This document shows, piece after piece, positions 6,299-62,002 of a DNA stretch of 64,000 bases. This stretch comes from a virus: IMG/VR virus record IMGVR_UViG_3300042453_001086, positions 62,001-126,000 of that record. One strand, given 5' to 3'. Below the pieces are notes generated by a model. It saw nothing but the letters and a program-made list of their open reading frames with translations, made no database searches and was not told the origin of the DNA. The stretch's first letter is position 1, and each line of letters begins with the position of its first letter. The position numbers and the translations under genes are program-made.

Positions 6299-7123
6299 TT
6301 ATCCTATTGCATCGAGAGGTGGAAGTTCGTAATCGCTAATCATCTTAGATTCTATTTCATCTATTTCTCGGATAGCATCCTCGTATATCTGGCGACCGTT
6401 TATCTGTACTCCACCAGGAAGTTGAACATTATTAAACTTGATTAGATTCTGTCCCCACTGTCTCTTGAATAATGCAGTGATATATCTTTTCAAGAACCAA
6501 TCATTCCATATCTTTGGAGAATCGGTTGGATTTAAAAGACGATGGCATTCGACAATAAAATAGTTATCTTGTTGTAAAACTTTTGGGTTGTAATCAATAA
6601 AAAGTTTTCCGTTTCTTTTTGTGAAACGACATTGAATAATCGCCCCGCTGTTTAAAACCATATCCAAAGTTTCAAAATATTGCTTAAACATGTAATAGTT
6701 AACTAGGTCAACATTACCTAGAGAATATCCAGAGTTCAAAGAAAACATGTCCATTAGAAAATATTGGTTTCCAAAACCAAAAAAATCAGAACGCAAAGCA
6801 GTCATCGATAAAGAAAATACTCTCTCGATTCCTATAATATGATCTGGAAGTTCAATATAGTTATTTCTTTCTTCCCATTCACTACCATCTTCTGAAGTGT
6901 GAATAGTATTACCTTCTCTAAATCTTTCTAGTTCTTCCGCAGTAAACTTATGCTTTAAGTAAAGTTTTTCCATGCCGTCAAAATGACGTTCATTAAAATA
7001 CTGTAAAGCATCATCGATTAGATCTTCTAGTTGATCATCATCTACATTGATTTCTAATACAGGAGCACCAAGTTTTCTGAGGCAATACTCTTTTAACTCT
7101 TCTCTTGTGGCTGGTTTAGCCAT
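6299..7123 (-). CDS. gp13: Neck protein gp13 (head completion)
   Basis: A 274-aa head-completion/neck protein. The N-terminal ELKEYCLRKLGAPVLEINVD, DALQYFNERHFDGMEKLYL and the C-terminal LPGGVQINGRQIYEDAIREI match T4 gp13 (LKDVILRRLGAPII, ELYGEYHFDGVNKG, LPGGVTIDGQRLIEEA). It is slightly shorter than T4 gp13 (309). The start is the ATG directly after a terminator T-tract. Its only ribosome-binding site (AGAGG) lies inside the hairpin at 7128-7155, and a late promoter overlaps the far arm of that hairpin. Expression from read-through RNA and from the late promoter may therefore differ strongly (see findings). Confidence 0.95.
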   Translation of the reverse strand: MAKPATREELKEYCLRKLGAPVLEINVDDDQLEDLIDDALQYFNERHFDGMEKLYLKHKFTAEELERFREGNTIHTSEDGSEWEERNNYIELPDHIIGIERVFSLSMTALRSDFFGFGNQYFLMDMFSLNSGYSLGNVDLVNYYMFKQYFETLDMVLNSGAIIQCRFTKRNGKLFIDYNPKVLQQDNYFIVECHRLLNPTDSPKIWNDWFLKRYITALFKRQWGQNLIKFNNVQLPGGVQINGRQIYEDAIREIDEIESKMISDYELPPLDAIG

Positions 7124-7155
7124 AAAAAAATACCTCTAGTTTCCTAGAGGTATTT
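7124..7155 (-). terminator. Intrinsic terminator after the 1771-aa fibre gene
   Basis: Minus strand: 12-bp perfect stem AAATACCTCTAG / CTAGAGGTATTT (7155-7144 and 7139-7128) with a GAAA tetraloop, running into a T-tract at 7130-7124 that ends at the gp13 start codon. It begins about 21 nt after the stop of the fibre gene. Confidence 0.85.
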
Positions 7156-7158
7156 ATA
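7151..7158 (-). promoter_or_regulatory. Late promoter TATAAATA for gp13-gp16
   Basis: Perfect T4-type late octamer on the minus strand, 27 bases upstream of the gp13 start. Five of its eight bases lie in the 5' arm of the terminator hairpin. If transcription starts about 7 bases downstream, as at T4 late promoters, the RNA would begin near 7144 and lack that arm. Confidence 0.85.
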
Positions 7159-7176
7159 AATCATGTTATTTATTTA

Positions 7177-10100
7177 TCAACTCCAAGTACCAGCAATAAT
7201 CGATGGGTTAGATGGACCCATAGCTTGAATCTCAAAGTATGAGTTGGTACGAGTATTTACAGTTGCGTTAGCAGTATCACTCTTGTTAAACTGAGGAGTT
7301 AATGTTCCACCAGTTGTTGAGTTTGATACGAAGTAACCTTCAAATCTTATCGCACAATCAGTTGTGACAGTTACTGCTTGAGTAACAGCAGTTGATCCAG
7401 TTGCAGTTGTATTTTGGAATAACAATGCAGTTGCGGAAGGTCCATTTGCTCCTATTGAGTTATATCTAAAGTTCGTTGGAGCGTTTGAGAATGTAAAGAG
7501 TAGGTTCCAAGTACCACTTGTAGTAGTTGACTTGGAAAGATAATAACATCCACTAAATTTATATAATGTGTTTGCTCTTAGTGGAGCGGCATCTTGAGTT
7601 GTTCCTGAGAATACGTTTCTGACTGTGTTTGTGGTTCCAGTCTGAGCGAAGTCAGCAGCAGCTCTTAAGATTTGTGGCGCGAGGATAATACCTCTTCCAC
7701 CTTCAGTAGTTGCAGAAGCATAGAAAGCAATCTGGTTATACTCAAAACCACCTTGAAGCGGAGATGTTAATAGTGCCGCTGATGATGGTGTGAATCTAAG
7801 AGGGGCTAATGTGGTAGTACCAGCAGGAACAATCAAACTATTTCTTACTGTAGTCGTTCCTGTTGTAGCACCGATAGTTAAAGCAGTTGATGCGTTGCCG
7901 ATATCCAACTGAGAAATGGTTGGAAATACTAAACCAATACCAGTCGAACCACTGACATTAGTATCGATCATGATTTCTTCAGTTACTAGAGCACCTGTTC
8001 CATCGGCAGCTGCTGGTTTCGAAGCAATATATTTTCCAGGGGCAAGTAAAAGGTTTTCACTAATATTAAATCTACCAGTAGTTGAAGAACCATCATATGA
8101 TATAGTTTTATCTGTGGTTCCTTTGATAGTCAAACCAGCACCCTGAATAGCAGAATCACCAGTGACATTTCCTCCTGCAAGAATGACGTTTACATCTTCT
8201 ACGATTAGTTCAGTGGTATTGATACTGGTTGTCGTTCCACTAACTTGTAAACTTCCTCCAACAATCATATCACCAGTAACATTGCTGTTTCCATTAACAG
8301 TCAAGTTTTTGTTTACGGCTTCTGATCCAACTGTAATATCTTCATTTGAACTAATGAAGTTAGTATCAACATATGTCTTAACTGCTTTTTGTGTTGGGAC
8401 AAATGAATCGCTACTTTCCGAACCTCCTAATGTAGCATCGGAATCAAACTTAGTGATCTGAACACCAACTTTAGTTCCATCTGCTAGTGCAAACTGTAGA
8501 TTGGATAGACCTGTCAAGTCAAATGCTGATGCATCAATGGTTGACTTACCAGTTGCTTGGTCAATCTTAAAGAACTGACCTACCTTAAAGTTACCATCTT
8601 GGTTAGTAGTTACATAATAAATTCTAGCAGGAGCGATGAAGTTAGTTTCCTTAGTTTCATCTGGTCTTATTATAGGTTCATCTGGGAAGTTGGTTGTAGC
8701 GATACCGCCAGTACCAATCTCAAGCATGTCGTGACCAGTTAGACGAATCTGACTGTAACGATAACGAATCTGGAGACGATTTCCGCTTCCTTCTGCAACA
8801 GATTTAACTGGGAAGAATGTTAGGATTGCAGTTCCAGGATTTGTTGAGGTCTTGAGATCTACTCTAAAGAACTCATTGTCAACCTTAATAAAATCATTTT
8901 CATTGATTGTTTTTGTTGCTATTCCTTCTTGATCTGTGAATGCGAAAACAGGAAGACCGCCATTACCAGTTAAAGAACTGTATGAAAGAACGTTTGAAAG
9001 ATTTGTTGTGTCTTGTCTCAGTGTGGTTACTGGAGTGTACTTAACTACAAATTTTACTACAGCGTTTGCTGGGAAGTTAGGTGAATCTTGGTCAGCATGT
9101 TCTTGGGCAATAGTTCCTTCCTGAGCTCTAGTAACAGTTACATAACTATTGAAAGCATCACTAACAACTGCTGTTGGTAGCATTAACTCATTACCTACTA
9201 GTAGATAAAGAGTTGTTGATGCAGTATTGTATGTAGCAAGAGCTGCTGTTACTCTTTCTGGATTTAAAATATTAATGTTAGTCGCTGAAGTTGAAGTTAA
9301 TAACTGACCAGGATTATCAATAAGAACTTGGTTATTTGTTCCAGTCAATAAACTATAAAGAGTAACGTCAGTTCCACCTACATGTGTTTCAGCTGGTCTA
9401 TTAACACCAGTTGGAAATGTTCCAGTTTTGGCAATAGGAATAGTTACTACAGTATTTTCTAAACTTGCTGTTCTTGTTACATCAAGAACTTTAAATGTAG
9501 CTGATGGACCATCACTGTAGTTTTCAATTTCTTGAATAACGTAGTTAATACCATCAATACTATCAGAAAATGTTACTGCACTAGTAATCTTTGGTTTTTC
9601 TGGTAGATTAATAACAGCAAACTTAGCACCTCTTGTTGCTCTGTTTGCAGCACTTTCACTTGGGGTTGCAGTTGGGAACTCGCTGTTTTCAATAACAGTA
9701 GATGCTTCTGGAATATTTACTGGTGGTGGATTGTTTGGATCTGCTCCTGTAATCTGAGCGCATCTTTGACCGTCACCGATAAATCCTGTGATTGGTTCGA
9801 TAAGAACTTTAGTATAATCATTACCAGCAAGAACATAAAGAACTCTTGCCTTACCCAATGCAGGTCTAACAGTACCACCAGCACCTAAAGTAGCGGTAGT
9901 TGTAGATGCAAACTGCACACCAGTAATAATACCATCTGTACCAACAATACCAGTAACCGTAAATGTGCCATTGAAAGCACTATTGGATACACCACTGATT
10001 GTAATTTGCTTACCAACTGCATAAGGATTAAATGGTTTAGTGGCAAATGAAACAGTGGCAGTTGTTCCATTTCCTACAACACCAGTAATACTAGTATTAT

Positions 10101-12492
10101 TTGCCGATCCTTCGTTAGAAATAATAGAACCTACTTGGAAATCTCCATTAATCTTTCCAGATTGAGCAATAGTTCCTAGTACTAAGTTACCATTAACAGT
10201 CGCTGTCGCAACTGCTGTTGTGGCATCATTATAGAAGTTTAATTCTGTGCCACGAATAGTTGCTTCAAGTGGAATCTCGGTTGGGTCAAATCCTCTTGCA
10301 GAACAACCATAGTTACCCCAAGAGTTGTTTCCGCCGAGGGAGCGCATACGAGCACCACCAGAGCAAGCATAACCAATATGAGCGTAGTAAGTAAAGCAAG
10401 AAACAATTTCTGAGTTTCCATTGTCCTTACACCAAATCGCAACACCCATTTCTGGGAACTGTGTTACGTTACCAAATAGTAAGCTTTGGTGACCAGAAGC
10501 AAAGTGAGATGGGTGATCTTTTCCTTCATTGACAGAACCATCTACAATAGCACCAACACCTTTAAATGAGTATGCCGCACAACTGTAAATATAAGGACTC
10601 TTAATAATATTCTGTGATACTAGGAATGGATTGATTCTCCAGAAAACGAACCCAACCTGACATTGTGTGATATCAGCAAGTTTGTTTCTTATTTCTTCCT
10701 CGATTGTCAATCCAGTTGTATCTGGCATAACAAAACCAGCATCGGGGTCTGGGTTGTTGAATACAAGATCCTTGAGCATCACACCTTCCGAAAGGAAGAA
10801 TAGAGTTGCTTTGGTGTTATCTAGATTTTCAACAGAAATGATATTTACTTCTGGTGCTGTTCCTAAATTAGTACCGTTTAAGAAAGTATCTGTATCGATA
10901 ATAGGACCGCCAGCAATGGTTTCAACATAAACCATTTTTTTGCGATTTGATTCTCCACTGCCCACGAGGGTAGCGTCAGTATCAGCGAAGTGAAGAACTC
11001 TTGCCGTTCTGGTTGCCCCTGCGACTGTATCAACAGTCAGTGTATCTCCTGGCTTTAATAAACATGTTGAATCAATGATTAATCTTTGAATCTTACTTAA
11101 ACCTGGACCTGGCTCGATAATAGTTCCTCTACTGTCGTCACCAACAACAGAACAATATGGCGGAACCGTAATAGGACACTCTTCGTCGTATACACCAGCT
11201 TTTACATAAATCGTTGCTGGGTTCTGTTCGTCGCAACCTTCTTGTGCAGCAATCTGAGTGGCGTACTTAACTGTTCTAAAAGCTCTTCCGATAGAACCGC
11301 CATATCCATCAGAAAAATCATCAACACCATCTAGGTTTACGAAGTAAACTTTTCTGGTTTTTGCATTACCCCATCCAGGAATACCATTTTCTGTAGCATA
11401 AAGAACCTGACCAGGATCTCCAATGGGCAATCTTGCGTTAGTGGCATTTGCTCTGTATAGAAGATCGCCTTTTGTTGTGATTGTACTTTCTTCATCACCT
11501 CTCGCAACTACAGACCAGAATCCATCTGCATCATTAGTTCCAGGATCTCTTCCTAAGTTATTGTAAGCAATGCTTACATAAGTACTAGAAGCTAGGGTGA
11601 TTACATCGTTCTTTTGATATGTTGTTTGGTCATCCCAATCACCTTTGTAAGATAAACCTTCGGAGATTAAACTCCATTTTAACGCACCATCTCCTGATTC
11701 ATTTGGAGCAATCCCAGCTACACTCGTAAGCATTTTAACGAATGTGTTTCCGCCAAAACGAACTACATCTCCAGGAACGTAAATGGTTGCTGGATTATAA
11801 ACACCTTTTGAATCAAAACCAATACTGATTACTTCCCAATCAGTACTAACATAGTTGTTTGGTTGCTTGTTAGTATTAATAGTTTTTGCGGTATATGAAT
11901 AACCACCAAAAAGAACGATGTCCCCAGGTTGATATTCCGTACTCGAATCCCAACTATCTTCAAACTTTACTGATTCTAAGTAAAGAGTAAACTTAGTAAT
12001 ATCAAATGCTGTCGTTGAAGTATGACCTAGATTGCATAGGTAAATGTTGTTTCCATATTTAACAAGATCATTGACTTTATACCAAGTGTTTTGCTGCCAA
12101 GTTCCTTTGTTTTCTGTGCCGTTATAAAAAAGATCCCAGTTACCAGCAAAGTTTGTTAGGTAAAAAAGATTTTGGTCGGATGGTGAAGTGTGGTTGTCTT
12201 TACAAATGTAAATATTACCACCATAACGCACAAGATCATTTTTAGCATAGAAAGTATTTGGTTGCCAAGAACCAGCATTTCTAATACCAGGAACATATAG
12301 TTCCCATCTTGGTGTACTTGCGTTGAGATCAACATCTTCCCATTGCTCTACTGAACCAGTAGAAGTGTGGTTAACCACACAAACGTAAGTATTACCTCTG
12401 AATGAGATAATGTCGTCCAGAACATAGGCGCGGTTTGGTTGCCATTCGCCAGTCCAGTTGAACTTTAGTCTACCTAATCTAAATTCAGCCAT
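7177..12492 (-). CDS. Giant tail fibre with carbohydrate-binding-like repeats, 1771 aa
   Basis: Predicted long adhesin. Residues about 14-340 hold six modules of the form W-x-Y-x-GD-V-x-YGGN-Y (for example GSWQPNTFYAKNDLVRYGG), like the CBM5/12 chitin/cellulose-binding fold. Next comes KGDLLYRANATNARLPIGD, a linker common in marine phage fibres. A region from about residue 383 (VYFVNLDGVDDFSDGYGGS, TIYVKAGVYDEECPI) looks like a right-handed beta-helix. Further on are FFKIDQATGKSTIDA and FVPTQKAVKTYVD, shared with the 1693-aa fibre, then NLTVNGNSNVTGDMIVGGSL and a C-terminal tip (LTSPLQGGFEYNQIAFY) related to the 540-aa fibre. The start has an AGGAAG leader. Binding specificity is unknown. Confidence 0.85.
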   Translation of the reverse strand: MAEFRLGRLKFNWTGEWQPNRAYVLDDIISFRGNTYVCVVNHTSTGSVEQWEDVDLNASTPRWELYVPGIRNAGSWQPNTFYAKNDLVRYGGNIYICKDNHTSPSDQNLFYLTNFAGNWDLFYNGTENKGTWQQNTWYKVNDLVKYGNNIYLCNLGHTSTTAFDITKFTLYLESVKFEDSWDSSTEYQPGDIVLFGGYSYTAKTINTNKQPNNYVSTDWEVISIGFDSKGVYNPATIYVPGDVVRFGGNTFVKMLTSVAGIAPNESGDGALKWSLISEGLSYKGDWDDQTTYQKNDVITLASSTYVSIAYNNLGRDPGTNDADGFWSVVARGDEESTITTKGDLLYRANATNARLPIGDPGQVLYATENGIPGWGNAKTRKVYFVNLDGVDDFSDGYGGSIGRAFRTVKYATQIAAQEGCDEQNPATIYVKAGVYDEECPITVPPYCSVVGDDSRGTIIEPGPGLSKIQRLIIDSTCLLKPGDTLTVDTVAGATRTARVLHFADTDATLVGSGESNRKKMVYVETIAGGPIIDTDTFLNGTNLGTAPEVNIISVENLDNTKATLFFLSEGVMLKDLVFNNPDPDAGFVMPDTTGLTIEEEIRNKLADITQCQVGFVFWRINPFLVSQNIIKSPYIYSCAAYSFKGVGAIVDGSVNEGKDHPSHFASGHQSLLFGNVTQFPEMGVAIWCKDNGNSEIVSCFTYYAHIGYACSGGARMRSLGGNNSWGNYGCSARGFDPTEIPLEATIRGTELNFYNDATTAVATATVNGNLVLGTIAQSGKINGDFQVGSIISNEGSANNTSITGVVGNGTTATVSFATKPFNPYAVGKQITISGVSNSAFNGTFTVTGIVGTDGIITGVQFASTTTATLGAGGTVRPALGKARVLYVLAGNDYTKVLIEPITGFIGDGQRCAQITGADPNNPPPVNIPEASTVIENSEFPTATPSESAANRATRGAKFAVINLPEKPKITSAVTFSDSIDGINYVIQEIENYSDGPSATFKVLDVTRTASLENTVVTIPIAKTGTFPTGVNRPAETHVGGTDVTLYSLLTGTNNQVLIDNPGQLLTSTSATNINILNPERVTAALATYNTASTTLYLLVGNELMLPTAVVSDAFNSYVTVTRAQEGTIAQEHADQDSPNFPANAVVKFVVKYTPVTTLRQDTTNLSNVLSYSSLTGNGGLPVFAFTDQEGIATKTINENDFIKVDNEFFRVDLKTSTNPGTAILTFFPVKSVAEGSGNRLQIRYRYSQIRLTGHDMLEIGTGGIATTNFPDEPIIRPDETKETNFIAPARIYYVTTNQDGNFKVGQFFKIDQATGKSTIDASAFDLTGLSNLQFALADGTKVGVQITKFDSDATLGGSESSDSFVPTQKAVKTYVDTNFISSNEDITVGSEAVNKNLTVNGNSNVTGDMIVGGSLQVSGTTTSINTTELIVEDVNVILAGGNVTGDSAIQGAGLTIKGTTDKTISYDGSSTTGRFNISENLLLAPGKYIASKPAAADGTGALVTEEIMIDTNVSGSTGIGLVFPTISQLDIGNASTALTIGATTGTTTVRNSLIVPAGTTTLAPLRFTPSSAALLTSPLQGGFEYNQIAFYASATTEGGRGIILAPQILRAAADFAQTGTTNTVRNVFSGTTQDAAPLRANTLYKFSGCYYLSKSTTTSGTWNLLFTFSNAPTNFRYNSIGANGPSATALLFQNTTATGSTAVTQAVTVTTDCAIRFEGYFVSNSTTGGTLTPQFNKSDTANATVNTRTNSYFEIQAMGPSNPSIIAGTWS
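11470..12455 (-). repeat. Six CBM5/12-like repeat modules in the 1771-aa fibre
   Basis: Six coding repeats of about 50-60 residues at the N-terminus of the fibre, starting at GEWQPNRAY, GSWQPNTFY, GTWQQNTWY, DSWDSSTEY, GVYNPATIY and GDWDDQTTY. The first three are the most alike and share the ending C-x(3)-HTS, while the last three have diverged. This suggests recent duplication at the N-terminal side. Confidence 0.75.
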
Positions 12493-18600: not shown

Positions 18601-21600
18601 TCTAATCCAATAACTTCCTTTACATAATACGTTTGAAGGTCAGTTAAACCACCGATTGTAGTATTGCCACCATCATCATAAACAAGTTCTGTGCCAGGTA
18701 CTAGACCGTGGTTTGCCTTGAAGATAGTGTCAGCAGTTGGGTTGGTAACAGTCTTAGTGAAGACATGGGCAGAACCAGTACCAAAACTCTCAAGGTCTAA
18801 ACGATTACCTACAGAAGTTGTTTTGAGACCAAACTTAGTTGGCGAACTTAAGTCAATATAGTAACCCTTAGTTACAGAACCAAATGCAGATCCAGTTCCA
18901 GGATTTGCGGTTGATGTAACAGTAAACTGAGTACTTCCGTTAGTCGTAGCAATCGTCCAGCTTCCATTGTATGCAGATGGTGTTACACCACTGATAACAA
19001 CACCTTCTCCAACAGACCACGATGAAGAGTTAGTTGTTACTGTAAAGTTGGATGCGGTTGAAGTGATGGCAGTAATAGTAACAGCAGAGTTTTGGGTTAT
19101 GCCAGCAATAGATGTTCCGCCACCATTTGAATATGTAACAATATCATTGTCAGCAAATCCATGTGCGCTTGAGAAGTTGATTAGGTTTCTTGCTGCATAT
19201 TCTTGGTAAGGAACGAATGCATGAATACCACTTGTTTGTGAGAAACTATGTGTAAATGATTGAGTGCCGTAATCAGTTAAGTTGATTCTAACTCCACTAG
19301 AAGTTAGAGATAATCCAAATCTGTTTGCATCATAACGTCTTACGAAGTACTTCGTATTTGTTGTGAGACCAGTGATAGCAGTGTTTCCATTAGAATCATA
19401 ATTTACCTCATCGTTATCATTATATCCGTGGTTTGCTTGATAGATAGTCCAAGCAGTTTCTAGTGAACGATAAGGAACGAGTAGATGAATCTGACCACCC
19501 GCAGCAAATGTATATCCAGCACTGAATGTGAATGCCGTACCACCTCTTGTTGTAGCAAGAGTCATTTGAGTGGCAGCAGGATAAGACCTTGAGAAGAATG
19601 TAGTTCCTAGATTAGTATTTACTGCCGTGATAACACCACTGGTTGTTGCGTTAGCTGCTGTGTTTAAGGTATAAGTACCAGCACCACCAGCACCAGTTCC
19701 AAAAGCAATAATAAATGCACCAGCAGGAATACCAGGACCAGAAACGGCAGAACCGATTTCTAGTGCTCCACTGATTGCAGTTGGAGATCCGCTAACAGTA
19801 ATACTAGCACTTCCATTTGTTGTGCTGACTGATCCAATAAATGTAGTTGCATGTGCGCCGCTGCTATACCATTGAGCAGTGTTTGCTTCAGCACCTTGTA
19901 ATACGTTACCAGTGGATGAGAGGTTGGCTAATGCTGGACCTTTGTAATAAACAAACTTTTGATCGGTATTTCCGCTGATTGCGAATCCTCTACCAGCGTC
20001 ACTGTTGTTAACATCAGTTGCTTGCATAGTGATGGTGGCAACACCATTCGTAACAGAGTTGATACACATACCAGCAACAAGTAGGAATCCAGGTCCACTC
20101 AAACCAGATAAAGTTAGTGCAGTAGTTCCGTTTTGAACTAATGTGAGAGCAGGAGCTGCTGGTGTAGCACTGGCAACGCCTGTAGTTCTAATAGCGTATG
20201 CTCTACCATTCGTAAGAGCAGCTGGTAGTGTAGTACCAGGAAGAGCAATAAGTGCTACACCAGTCTGGTCCGTGAATACTGTAGTGTTAGCACCAAAGTT
20301 AATAAAGTTACCTGAAATCATGTTAGGTGTCACCAGGGCAATACCGCTGTTTGATGCACCATGTAAAGTTCCCTTACGAGAAGTGGCGTTTAAAATATTG
20401 ACACCTAAAGAATCTGGTGAATACTGTAAGTTGCCAGTAATAGTTGTTGCAGTAGAAACAGTTTGCGAAGCACTAACTGTGTATGTTCCAGTTCCGCCAG
20501 TGCCAGTTCCAAAAGCAGTGATTCTAGTTCCAGCAGTTACACCAGTACCAGAAATGACACTACCAATCTCTAAACGACCATCTGTAACAGCAGAGATTGT
20601 TAGTGTTGTTGTGGCGATAGTACCAGTACCACTGAAAGCACTAGCCTCTTTTCTTAATGGACTGATTGCTAGAAGTGGACCTTCGGTTACATTATAGTTT
20701 CCAGTTGAAGTTGAGTTGATGGTCCAATCTGCAGAAGCACCACCAGTAACAAAATATGTACTGGTTAAGTTTGCCGAATCAGCAGTATACCAGTCTGCAA
20801 TAGTGCCAACAGCATCAGCAGGACCAGTAGTGCCAGCAGAAGACTGTTGAATCAAAGCAGGGCTTTGATCTCCTCTGTAGTAAACAAATCTCTGTGAACT
20901 AGCCCAACCAGGATTCTCAAAGAACTTGATTTGGTCGTTGCTATAGTTAATGCTTCTTACGCCATGCGCTCTAACAATAGCGAACTGACCGCTACCAGTG
21001 CTGGTGATATCTACAGGAGTTGTTGAACTCCAGTATCTTGTTAGATAGAAGGTATTGACATCAATAGTTCTAAGAACATATGCACGACCACCTGTTACAC
21101 CACCAGGCATTGTAGAACCAGCAGCAGGGAAAATAACTACTGCTTGGTTATCAGAGAATCCATGTGAGCTTAGCGTAATGTTATTTGTTGCTGCATCAAC
21201 AGCATCGCTTGTGAATGCTTTAGTATTAGAAATACCAGATGCACCTTGCTTGTCCCAGATAGTTACGTTGTAAGAATCTAGTGTTCCTACGGACTGAGTT
21301 CCTGTTGGATTGACGGTTGCAGTTGATGTGATTGTATCTGCAGTATCAACTAGAGTTGCATCAAATGAAATATTGCTCAGAGCAATAGTATTTGTCAAAT
21401 AGAAAGCAGCTCCATTAACAAACCCTGATGGATATGGAGTTTCAATCGTAATGGTTGATGGGTTGGCAGCATTAGTTGTGATTGTCTTATACTGAACTTG
21501 CGAACCCTGATAAAACTGTCCAGGAGTAATGGTTGTGTAAGATCCAAAAACAGAACCAGTAAATGTTGCTTTCTCTCTGGCAACAAAAGTAAAACGATCT

Positions 21601-61995: not shown

Positions 61996-62002
61996 TATAG
62001 TA

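Follow-up and report, generated by a model that had tools for sequence, protein, structure and literature searches.

A late promoter box nested in a terminator-like hairpin before gp13: a probable late-start-dependent switch in T4-like cyanophages

We describe a 35-bp element between a tail fiber gene and the neck gene gp13 of a cyanophage, in which a T4-type late promoter box, a hairpin resembling an intrinsic terminator, and the gp13 ribosome-binding site overlap one another. The element is likely to be a late-start-dependent switch of the T4 e/49/I-TevI type that has been fused to an intrinsic terminator. The geometry of the junction, folding of the two predicted RNAs, covariation and conservation in relatives, and recurrence of the same layout at other genes all bear on this reading.

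RESULTS

A late box, a hairpin, and a ribosome-binding site overlap at the fiber/gp13 junction

The window, i.e., the whole stretch of 64,000 nucleotides analyzed here, covers positions 62001 to 126000 of a 189,882-base virus record. Synechococcus and Prochlorococcus phages make up most of its closest annotated relatives, and the record is that of a T4-like cyanophage. Profile matches place gp13, gp14, and gp15 consecutively in the window. gp13, the neck protein or head-tail adaptor Ad2 (274 amino acids [aa]), occupies positions 6299 to 7123 of the minus strand (phrog_211; E value, 5e-42). Upstream of it, on the same strand, lies a 1771-aa tail fiber gene with CBM_5_12 modules (positions 7177 to 12492; phrog_9851 and PF02839); this carbohydrate-binding module was matched in three stretches of the fiber protein (Pfam, 5e-28).

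From the fiber stop codon to the gp13 ATG (positions 7123 to 7121, minus strand), the window sequence is TATAAATACCTCTAGGAAACTAGAGGTATTTTTTTATG. Read directly on the minus strand, the junction has the form TATAAATA/CCTCTAG-GAAA-CTAGAGG-TATTTTTTT-ATG. The octamer TATAAATA (7151 to 7158) is an exact match to the T4-type late promoter box, and we call it a late box on the basis of NATAAATA, a late motif reported for cyanophages (PMC2984593). Direct reading and folding of the same strand reveal a hairpin with a 5′ arm, AAATACCTCTAG (7144 to 7155), a GAAA tetraloop (7140 to 7143), and a 3′ arm, CTAGAGGTATTT (7128 to 7139). The stem is a perfect 12 bp with only 4 G-C pairs. The late box (7158 to 7151) and the 5′ arm (7155 to 7144) overlap by five bases. 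AGAGG (7137 to 7133), the only good Shine-Dalgarno sequence (SD) of gp13, lies within the 3′ arm; its pairing with the anti-SD through GAGGT is worth −6.2 kcal/mol, and the 5′ arm holds ACCUC, letters identical to the anti-SD of 16S rRNA. A terminator scan identified a tract of seven T residues (7130 to 7124, minus strand), which serves both as the U-tract of an intrinsic terminator and as the spacer between the SD and the ATG; three of the seven are paired within the stem. In all of these particulars, namely, the hairpin with its loop and T-tract, the five-base overlap, and the position of the SD, the initial annotation had been correct to the coordinate.

A 49-nt segment folds with an energy of −17.2 kcal/mol (z = −6.0), and 0 of 200 shuffled sequences were equally stable. 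The hairpin is among the best terminator-like sites in the first 16 kb of the window. By itself, TATAAATA is neither enriched nor rarer than expected in the window (9 copies, compared to 5.95 by chance), and the significance of the arrangement is the nesting of the box in the stem, not the frequency of the box. A search of Rfam identified no family above its gathering score, the best overlapping match reaching 21.8 bits against a gathering score of 60. In T4, the late box precedes the transcription start by about one turn (PMC2988020). By analogy, with the box at −13 to −6, transcription is predicted to start at positions 7145 to 7143 of the minus strand.

Elsewhere in the window, the layout is conventional: a terminator hairpin (13942 to 13921) is followed by a late box TATAAATA (13915 to 13908), both on the minus strand and identified by terminator scan and box match, respectively. 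The unit containing the fiber gene apparently starts at this box. Since a late box precedes the fiber gene as well, the purpose of the element at gp13 cannot be early/late timing. The initial annotation had proposed that the element makes the neck genes dependent on late initiation; the late-start logic is supported, but at gp13 it would insulate late from late transcription rather than separate early from late.

The element is conserved before gp13 in many, but not all, relatives

Loci found by the DNA pattern of the element itself are biased for conservation. We therefore repeated the measurement on relatives collected by gp13 protein alone, which gave 72 distinct leaders. Twenty-one are of class A, with a stem as in the window and nearly always a T-tract. 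Six are of class B, in which the stem is mismatched or bulged and lacks the T-tract but still covers the SD. Two are of class C, in which the late box is in the loop of a terminator and the SD is outside. The initial annotation had held that relatives keeping the promoter but losing the stem would speak against it, and this is partly what we found: 15 leaders have a late box without such a stem, while 28 have neither. The stem is missing from many relatives and is therefore not required for gp13.

Among the 21 class A leaders of the protein-only set, identity reaches 0.94 to 0.98 across the box and 5′ arm; it is 0.30 upstream of the box and, at the third codon positions within gp13, 0.58. Thus, many T4-like cyanophages have nearly the same element before gp13, with unrelated sequences upstream of it. 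The tetraloop varies (GAAA, AAGA, GACA, or GAGA). All 77 class A loci with enough flanking sequence have a same-strand gene upstream; one class B leader (L132) has an upstream open reading frame (ORF) on the opposite strand. A class A element precedes gp13 in S-SCSM2R, a cultured phage of Synechococcus WH7803, and hence the element is directly testable.

Other named phages differ. S-PM2 and S-RIM32 have class C leaders before gp13 (L265 and L274, respectively), with the box GATAAATA, whose ATAAATA coincides exactly with the 7-nt loop of a terminator that has a 12-bp stem. The gp13 leaders of S-CAM1, S-CAM3, P-SSM2, and S-SRM01 have no late box, and those of S-SSM7 and HTVC008M, where the upstream gene is divergent, have no hairpin. 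In S-CAM1 (L270), S-CAM3 (L271), L005, and L017, fiber genes with similar C termini (…EAQA followed by the stop codon) nearly abut gp13; these junctions have an AGGAG site and neither promoter nor hairpin, and represent a natural read-through version.

The element sequence occurs once in the 190-kb record, and a mobile repeat was ruled out, there being one copy per record. An exact scan with the 16-mer ATAAATACCTCTAGGA, from the 5′ half of the element, showed that the viral-contig matches listed are mostly before gp13 and that the remainder lack the hairpin. We also considered whether cyanophage late promoters generally include CCTCTAGGA as a downstream part. It is absent downstream of the other late boxes of the window and was rejected in that role; among the viral-contig matches listed, the 16-mer is gp13 specific.

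Folding predicts that the SD is masked in read-through RNA and exposed in late RNA

We used the energy required to open the SD as the measure of exposure, with T4 switches as positive controls and other late genes as negative controls. Mean unpaired probability was set aside because it varies with the length of coding sequence folded. In the window leader, and in the identical leader L001, opening the SD is predicted to cost 10.8 to 11.9 kcal/mol in read-through RNA and 0.6 to 2.5 kcal/mol in RNA begun at the nested box. This agrees with the initial annotation, in which late RNA could not fold the hairpin and would expose the site whereas read-through RNA would hide it. Median values for read-through and late RNA, respectively, are 13.5 and 2.9 kcal/mol for gp13 leaders of class A (n = 81) and 4.8 and 1.1 kcal/mol for those of class B. 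The same calculation for T4 gave 14.1 and 4.1 kcal/mol for e, 12.0 and 4.2 kcal/mol for I-TevI, 8.6 and 1.1 kcal/mol for 49, 9.2 and 4.0 kcal/mol for segB, and 3.0 and 1.4 kcal/mol for soc; the last pair of values indicates that a reported case can escape this calculation. Control late-box genes (n = 127) had values of 2.5 and 1.8 kcal/mol, and the difference was at least 7 kcal/mol in only 3 of them. By this model, masking at gp13 is predicted to be as strong as at the switches proven in T4.

Judged by mean equilibrium pairing, the SD is only partly free in the late RNA. When the late RNA of the window was folded with 60 nt of coding sequence, the SD was nearly all paired, weakly, with codons at about positions 14 to 16; it is the opening energy alone that is low.

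The same layout occurs before other genes

We surveyed 657 late boxes in nine related genomes; a stem of at least 7 bp straddles 20 of them, compared to 0.8 expected from resampled flanks. We conclude that stem-straddled late boxes are not due to chance. The genome that contains the window has three: at gp13, at a resolvase-like gene, and at a gene for a 427-aa protein.

The second case, with its box at G000:21552 on the minus strand (L258, G000:C1:20001-40000), reads GATAAATACCTCCATCGTGGAGGTTTTTTATT-ATG and precedes a 115-aa gene that matches the PHROG "RusA-like Holliday junction resolvase" (8e-23) and, below the cutoff, Pfam PDDEXK. This gene is directly behind a 48-aa ORF and two genes that we take, from their sequences, to be nrdA and nrdB. 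Its relatives have the same box/stem layout with many different stem sequences, and the median cost of opening the SD is 11.7 kcal/mol in read-through RNA and 2.0 kcal/mol in late RNA (n = 49).

The third case (L258, reverse complement position 6851) reads GCCTCCCCTAAATATATTAGGGGAGGTATTTTTAT-ATG and precedes the 427-aa gene (phrog_13937), directly behind genes for a gp41-type helicase and MazG. It has a CTAAATA-type box, and its SD is near the predicted 5′ end of the RNA. Relatives of this gene mostly keep CCTCCCCTAAATA…GGGGAGG and the T-tract. The genes upstream of the resolvase-like and 427-aa genes function in DNA metabolism, so the T4 logic, in which a late gene is silent on early RNA, would apply there.

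A further candidate switch was seen in another genome (G010; L418, reverse complement position 19190). Here, TATAAATA occupies the loop of a perfect 12-bp hairpin that has a T-tract, and the gene downstream encodes a 112-aa protein matching the PHROG for L-shaped tail fiber assembly.

These results bear on a simpler explanation, in which the following late promoter was placed within the fiber terminator for economy of space and masking of the ribosome-binding site is a by-product. Such compaction is consistent with a canonical terminator carrying a T-tract, with the genes on both sides of the gp13 junction being late, and with the late box being in the terminator loop and the SD region outside in S-PM2, S-RIM32, L006, and L022. 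However, class B leaders have kept the stem over the SD without a T-tract, masking differences as large as that at gp13 are confined to 3 of the 127 control late genes, and the layout recurs before other genes that are behind DNA metabolism operons. We consider compaction alone to be an unlikely explanation.

Covariation preserves the stem

Changes in the class A arms keep the pairing; the fourth pair from the last A of the box, for example, is U-A, U-G, or C-G. Pairing is also retained in relatives with the arm variant CCCTTAG versus CTAGGGG, and L015 has an 11-nt loop with an intact stem. Across gp13 leaders, 93% of arm positions are paired, and the covariation score is 0.391, compared to 0.247 for shuffled arms (1 of 500 shuffles), as counted on distinct arm pairs with class B included, in which one pair is usually broken. 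The initial annotation had named compensatory changes in relatives as a check. For the resolvase-like gene, 92.7% of arm positions are paired, with a score of 0.693 compared to 0.369 for shuffled arms (0 of 500), and both sides change at 5 of 6 pairs.

Classes A and B alternate among near-identical gp13 genes (L008 and L021), which suggests exchange at the fiber/gp13 junction. This pattern would also fit an account in which the near-invariant CCTCTAGGAAACTAGGGG is recognized by a protein, or is a recombination seam for exchange of fiber modules, and the hairpin is secondary; so would conservation above that of the neighboring gp13 codons and the sharp boundary on the fiber side. However, the class A arm changes preserve pairing, the leaders of the resolvase-like and 427-aa genes have the same layout with other stem sequences, and the element is not found at other genes among the viral-contig matches listed. 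We therefore regard a sequence-specific site as very improbable.

Some leaders have additional upstream late boxes

The initial annotation had also named a transcription start upstream of 7155 as evidence against it, and candidates for such a start do exist. Two overlapping late-box-like sites, GATAAATA (7178 to 7171) and AATAAATA (7174 to 7167), are present in the intergenic sequence on the minus strand (7167 to 7178), although neither is a perfect consensus. RNA begun at either is predicted to contain the whole hairpin. A perfect copy of TATAAATA lies 17 to 20 nt upstream of the nested box in 7 of 81 class A leaders, compared to 0.6 expected; these tandem perfect boxes are in gp13 leaders L004, L103, L108, L115, L137, L142, and L175, and RNA begun at the upstream box is likewise predicted to include the complete hairpin. 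An attenuator, in which short RNA begun at an upstream box stops at the hairpin and gp13 output depends on the balance between the two boxes, could draw on second boxes 16 to 20 nt upstream in the window and several relatives (12 of 81, compared to 1.9 expected), but such boxes are imperfect in the window, absent from most class A leaders, and largely from one part of the gp13 tree, and we give this explanation scarcely any credence.

DISCUSSION

In the late-start-dependent switch that we favor, polymerase arriving through the fiber gene would make the full hairpin. With its U-tract, this terminator-like structure should stop the fiber RNA. In any read-through RNA that escapes, the gp13 SD would stay paired (about 11 kcal/mol by folding), and gp13 would presumably not be translated. 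In contrast, polymerase carrying the phage late sigma factor at the nested TATAAATA would start near 7145 to 7143, if T4 is a guide. No more than two bases of the 5′ arm would be included in the late RNA, such that termination would not occur and, by folding, the ribosome site would be open (0.6 to 2.5 kcal/mol). gp13, gp14, and gp15 would then be expressed from their own late promoter and may be insulated from the fiber transcript. Units with other stem sequences would serve the resolvase-like and 427-aa genes in the same genome. Class B leaders keep the mask over the SD without a T-tract, which argues against termination as the sole purpose; class C leaders combine a terminator and a nested promoter with the SD outside, which argues against masking as the sole purpose. 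The common denominator of the classes is that RNA begun at the nested box escapes the hairpin.

Hairpins over the ribosome-binding site that are relieved by a late promoter in the 5′ arm have been described for T4 e, soc, 49, I-TevI, and segB (PMC3014915, PMC2988022). The gp13 element has the same layout as T4 e (TATAAATACCTTC…GGAGGTATT-ATG) and I-TevI (AATAAATACTTCT…AGAGGTATTT-ATG), and nearly the same letters. As in the T4-type hairpins, the box overlaps the 5′ arm, which RNA from the predicted late start would lack; the SD is in the 3′ arm and, by folding, hidden only in read-through RNA; and compensatory changes in relatives preserve the stem. The change in the cost of opening the SD is of the same size as for e, I-TevI, and 49. 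Two differences stand out. A T-tract follows the stem at gp13 but not in the T4 leaders. Transcripts arriving from upstream are early or middle at the T4 switches, whereas the fiber gene before gp13 is late; early or middle upstream transcription is plausible at the resolvase-like gene (behind nrdA-nrdB) and the 427-aa gene (behind gp41-mazG). By analogy, the gp13 element would work like the T4 e/49/I-TevI switches, as a variant of them. No late box is present in the 80 nt upstream of T4 gene 13 itself. At the T4 wac-13 junction (L459, 43550 to 43624), a GC-rich hairpin, GGGGCCGCAAGGCCCC, is just upstream of the gene 13 SD.

The element also resembles an intrinsic (Rho-independent) terminator in having a stable 12-bp stem with a 4-nt loop followed by a U-tract. 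It departs from a plain terminator in that just 4 of its pairs are G-C, a promoter box lies within it, and its position is in the ribosome-binding region of the downstream gene. PeSL cassettes of T4-like phages, as cited in PMC4503421 (Arbiol 2010, Comeau 2014), are early promoters with stem-loops found in many places. As far as that account of them goes, the likeness is that both join a promoter and a stem-loop in a short unit at a junction beside variable genes; the difference is that the promoter here is a late one enclosed by the stem, and the sequence is gp13 specific among the viral-contig matches listed and present once in the 190-kb record.

The switch logic of the initial annotation is thus backed by the positions of the parts, by covariation, by conservation in relatives, and by opening energies like those in T4, but the mechanism is not new, being that of T4 e, 49, and I-TevI. 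What is new is the added U-tract, use between two late genes, and spread over several cyanophage genes. The literature searched, which left aside the PeSL papers and most subscription journals, contained no report of such a switch in cyanophages.

More tentatively, the combination of terminator, ribosome-binding site mask, and nested late promoter in about 35 to 40 bp might be a general insulator in T4-like cyanophages, making selected late genes deaf to upstream transcription, whether early or late. At gp13, it could allow unrelated fiber modules to be swapped in without altering expression of an essential virion gene.

Our findings extend to marine cyanophages a control mechanism that is classic in T4, here as a unit that recurs upstream of different genes. 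The resolvase-like nuclease gene is predicted to carry a control that T4 uses on its unrelated resolvase, gp49. The terminator and the position between two late genes suggest a role beyond early/late timing, in which a core virion gene would be insulated from hypervariable fiber modules.
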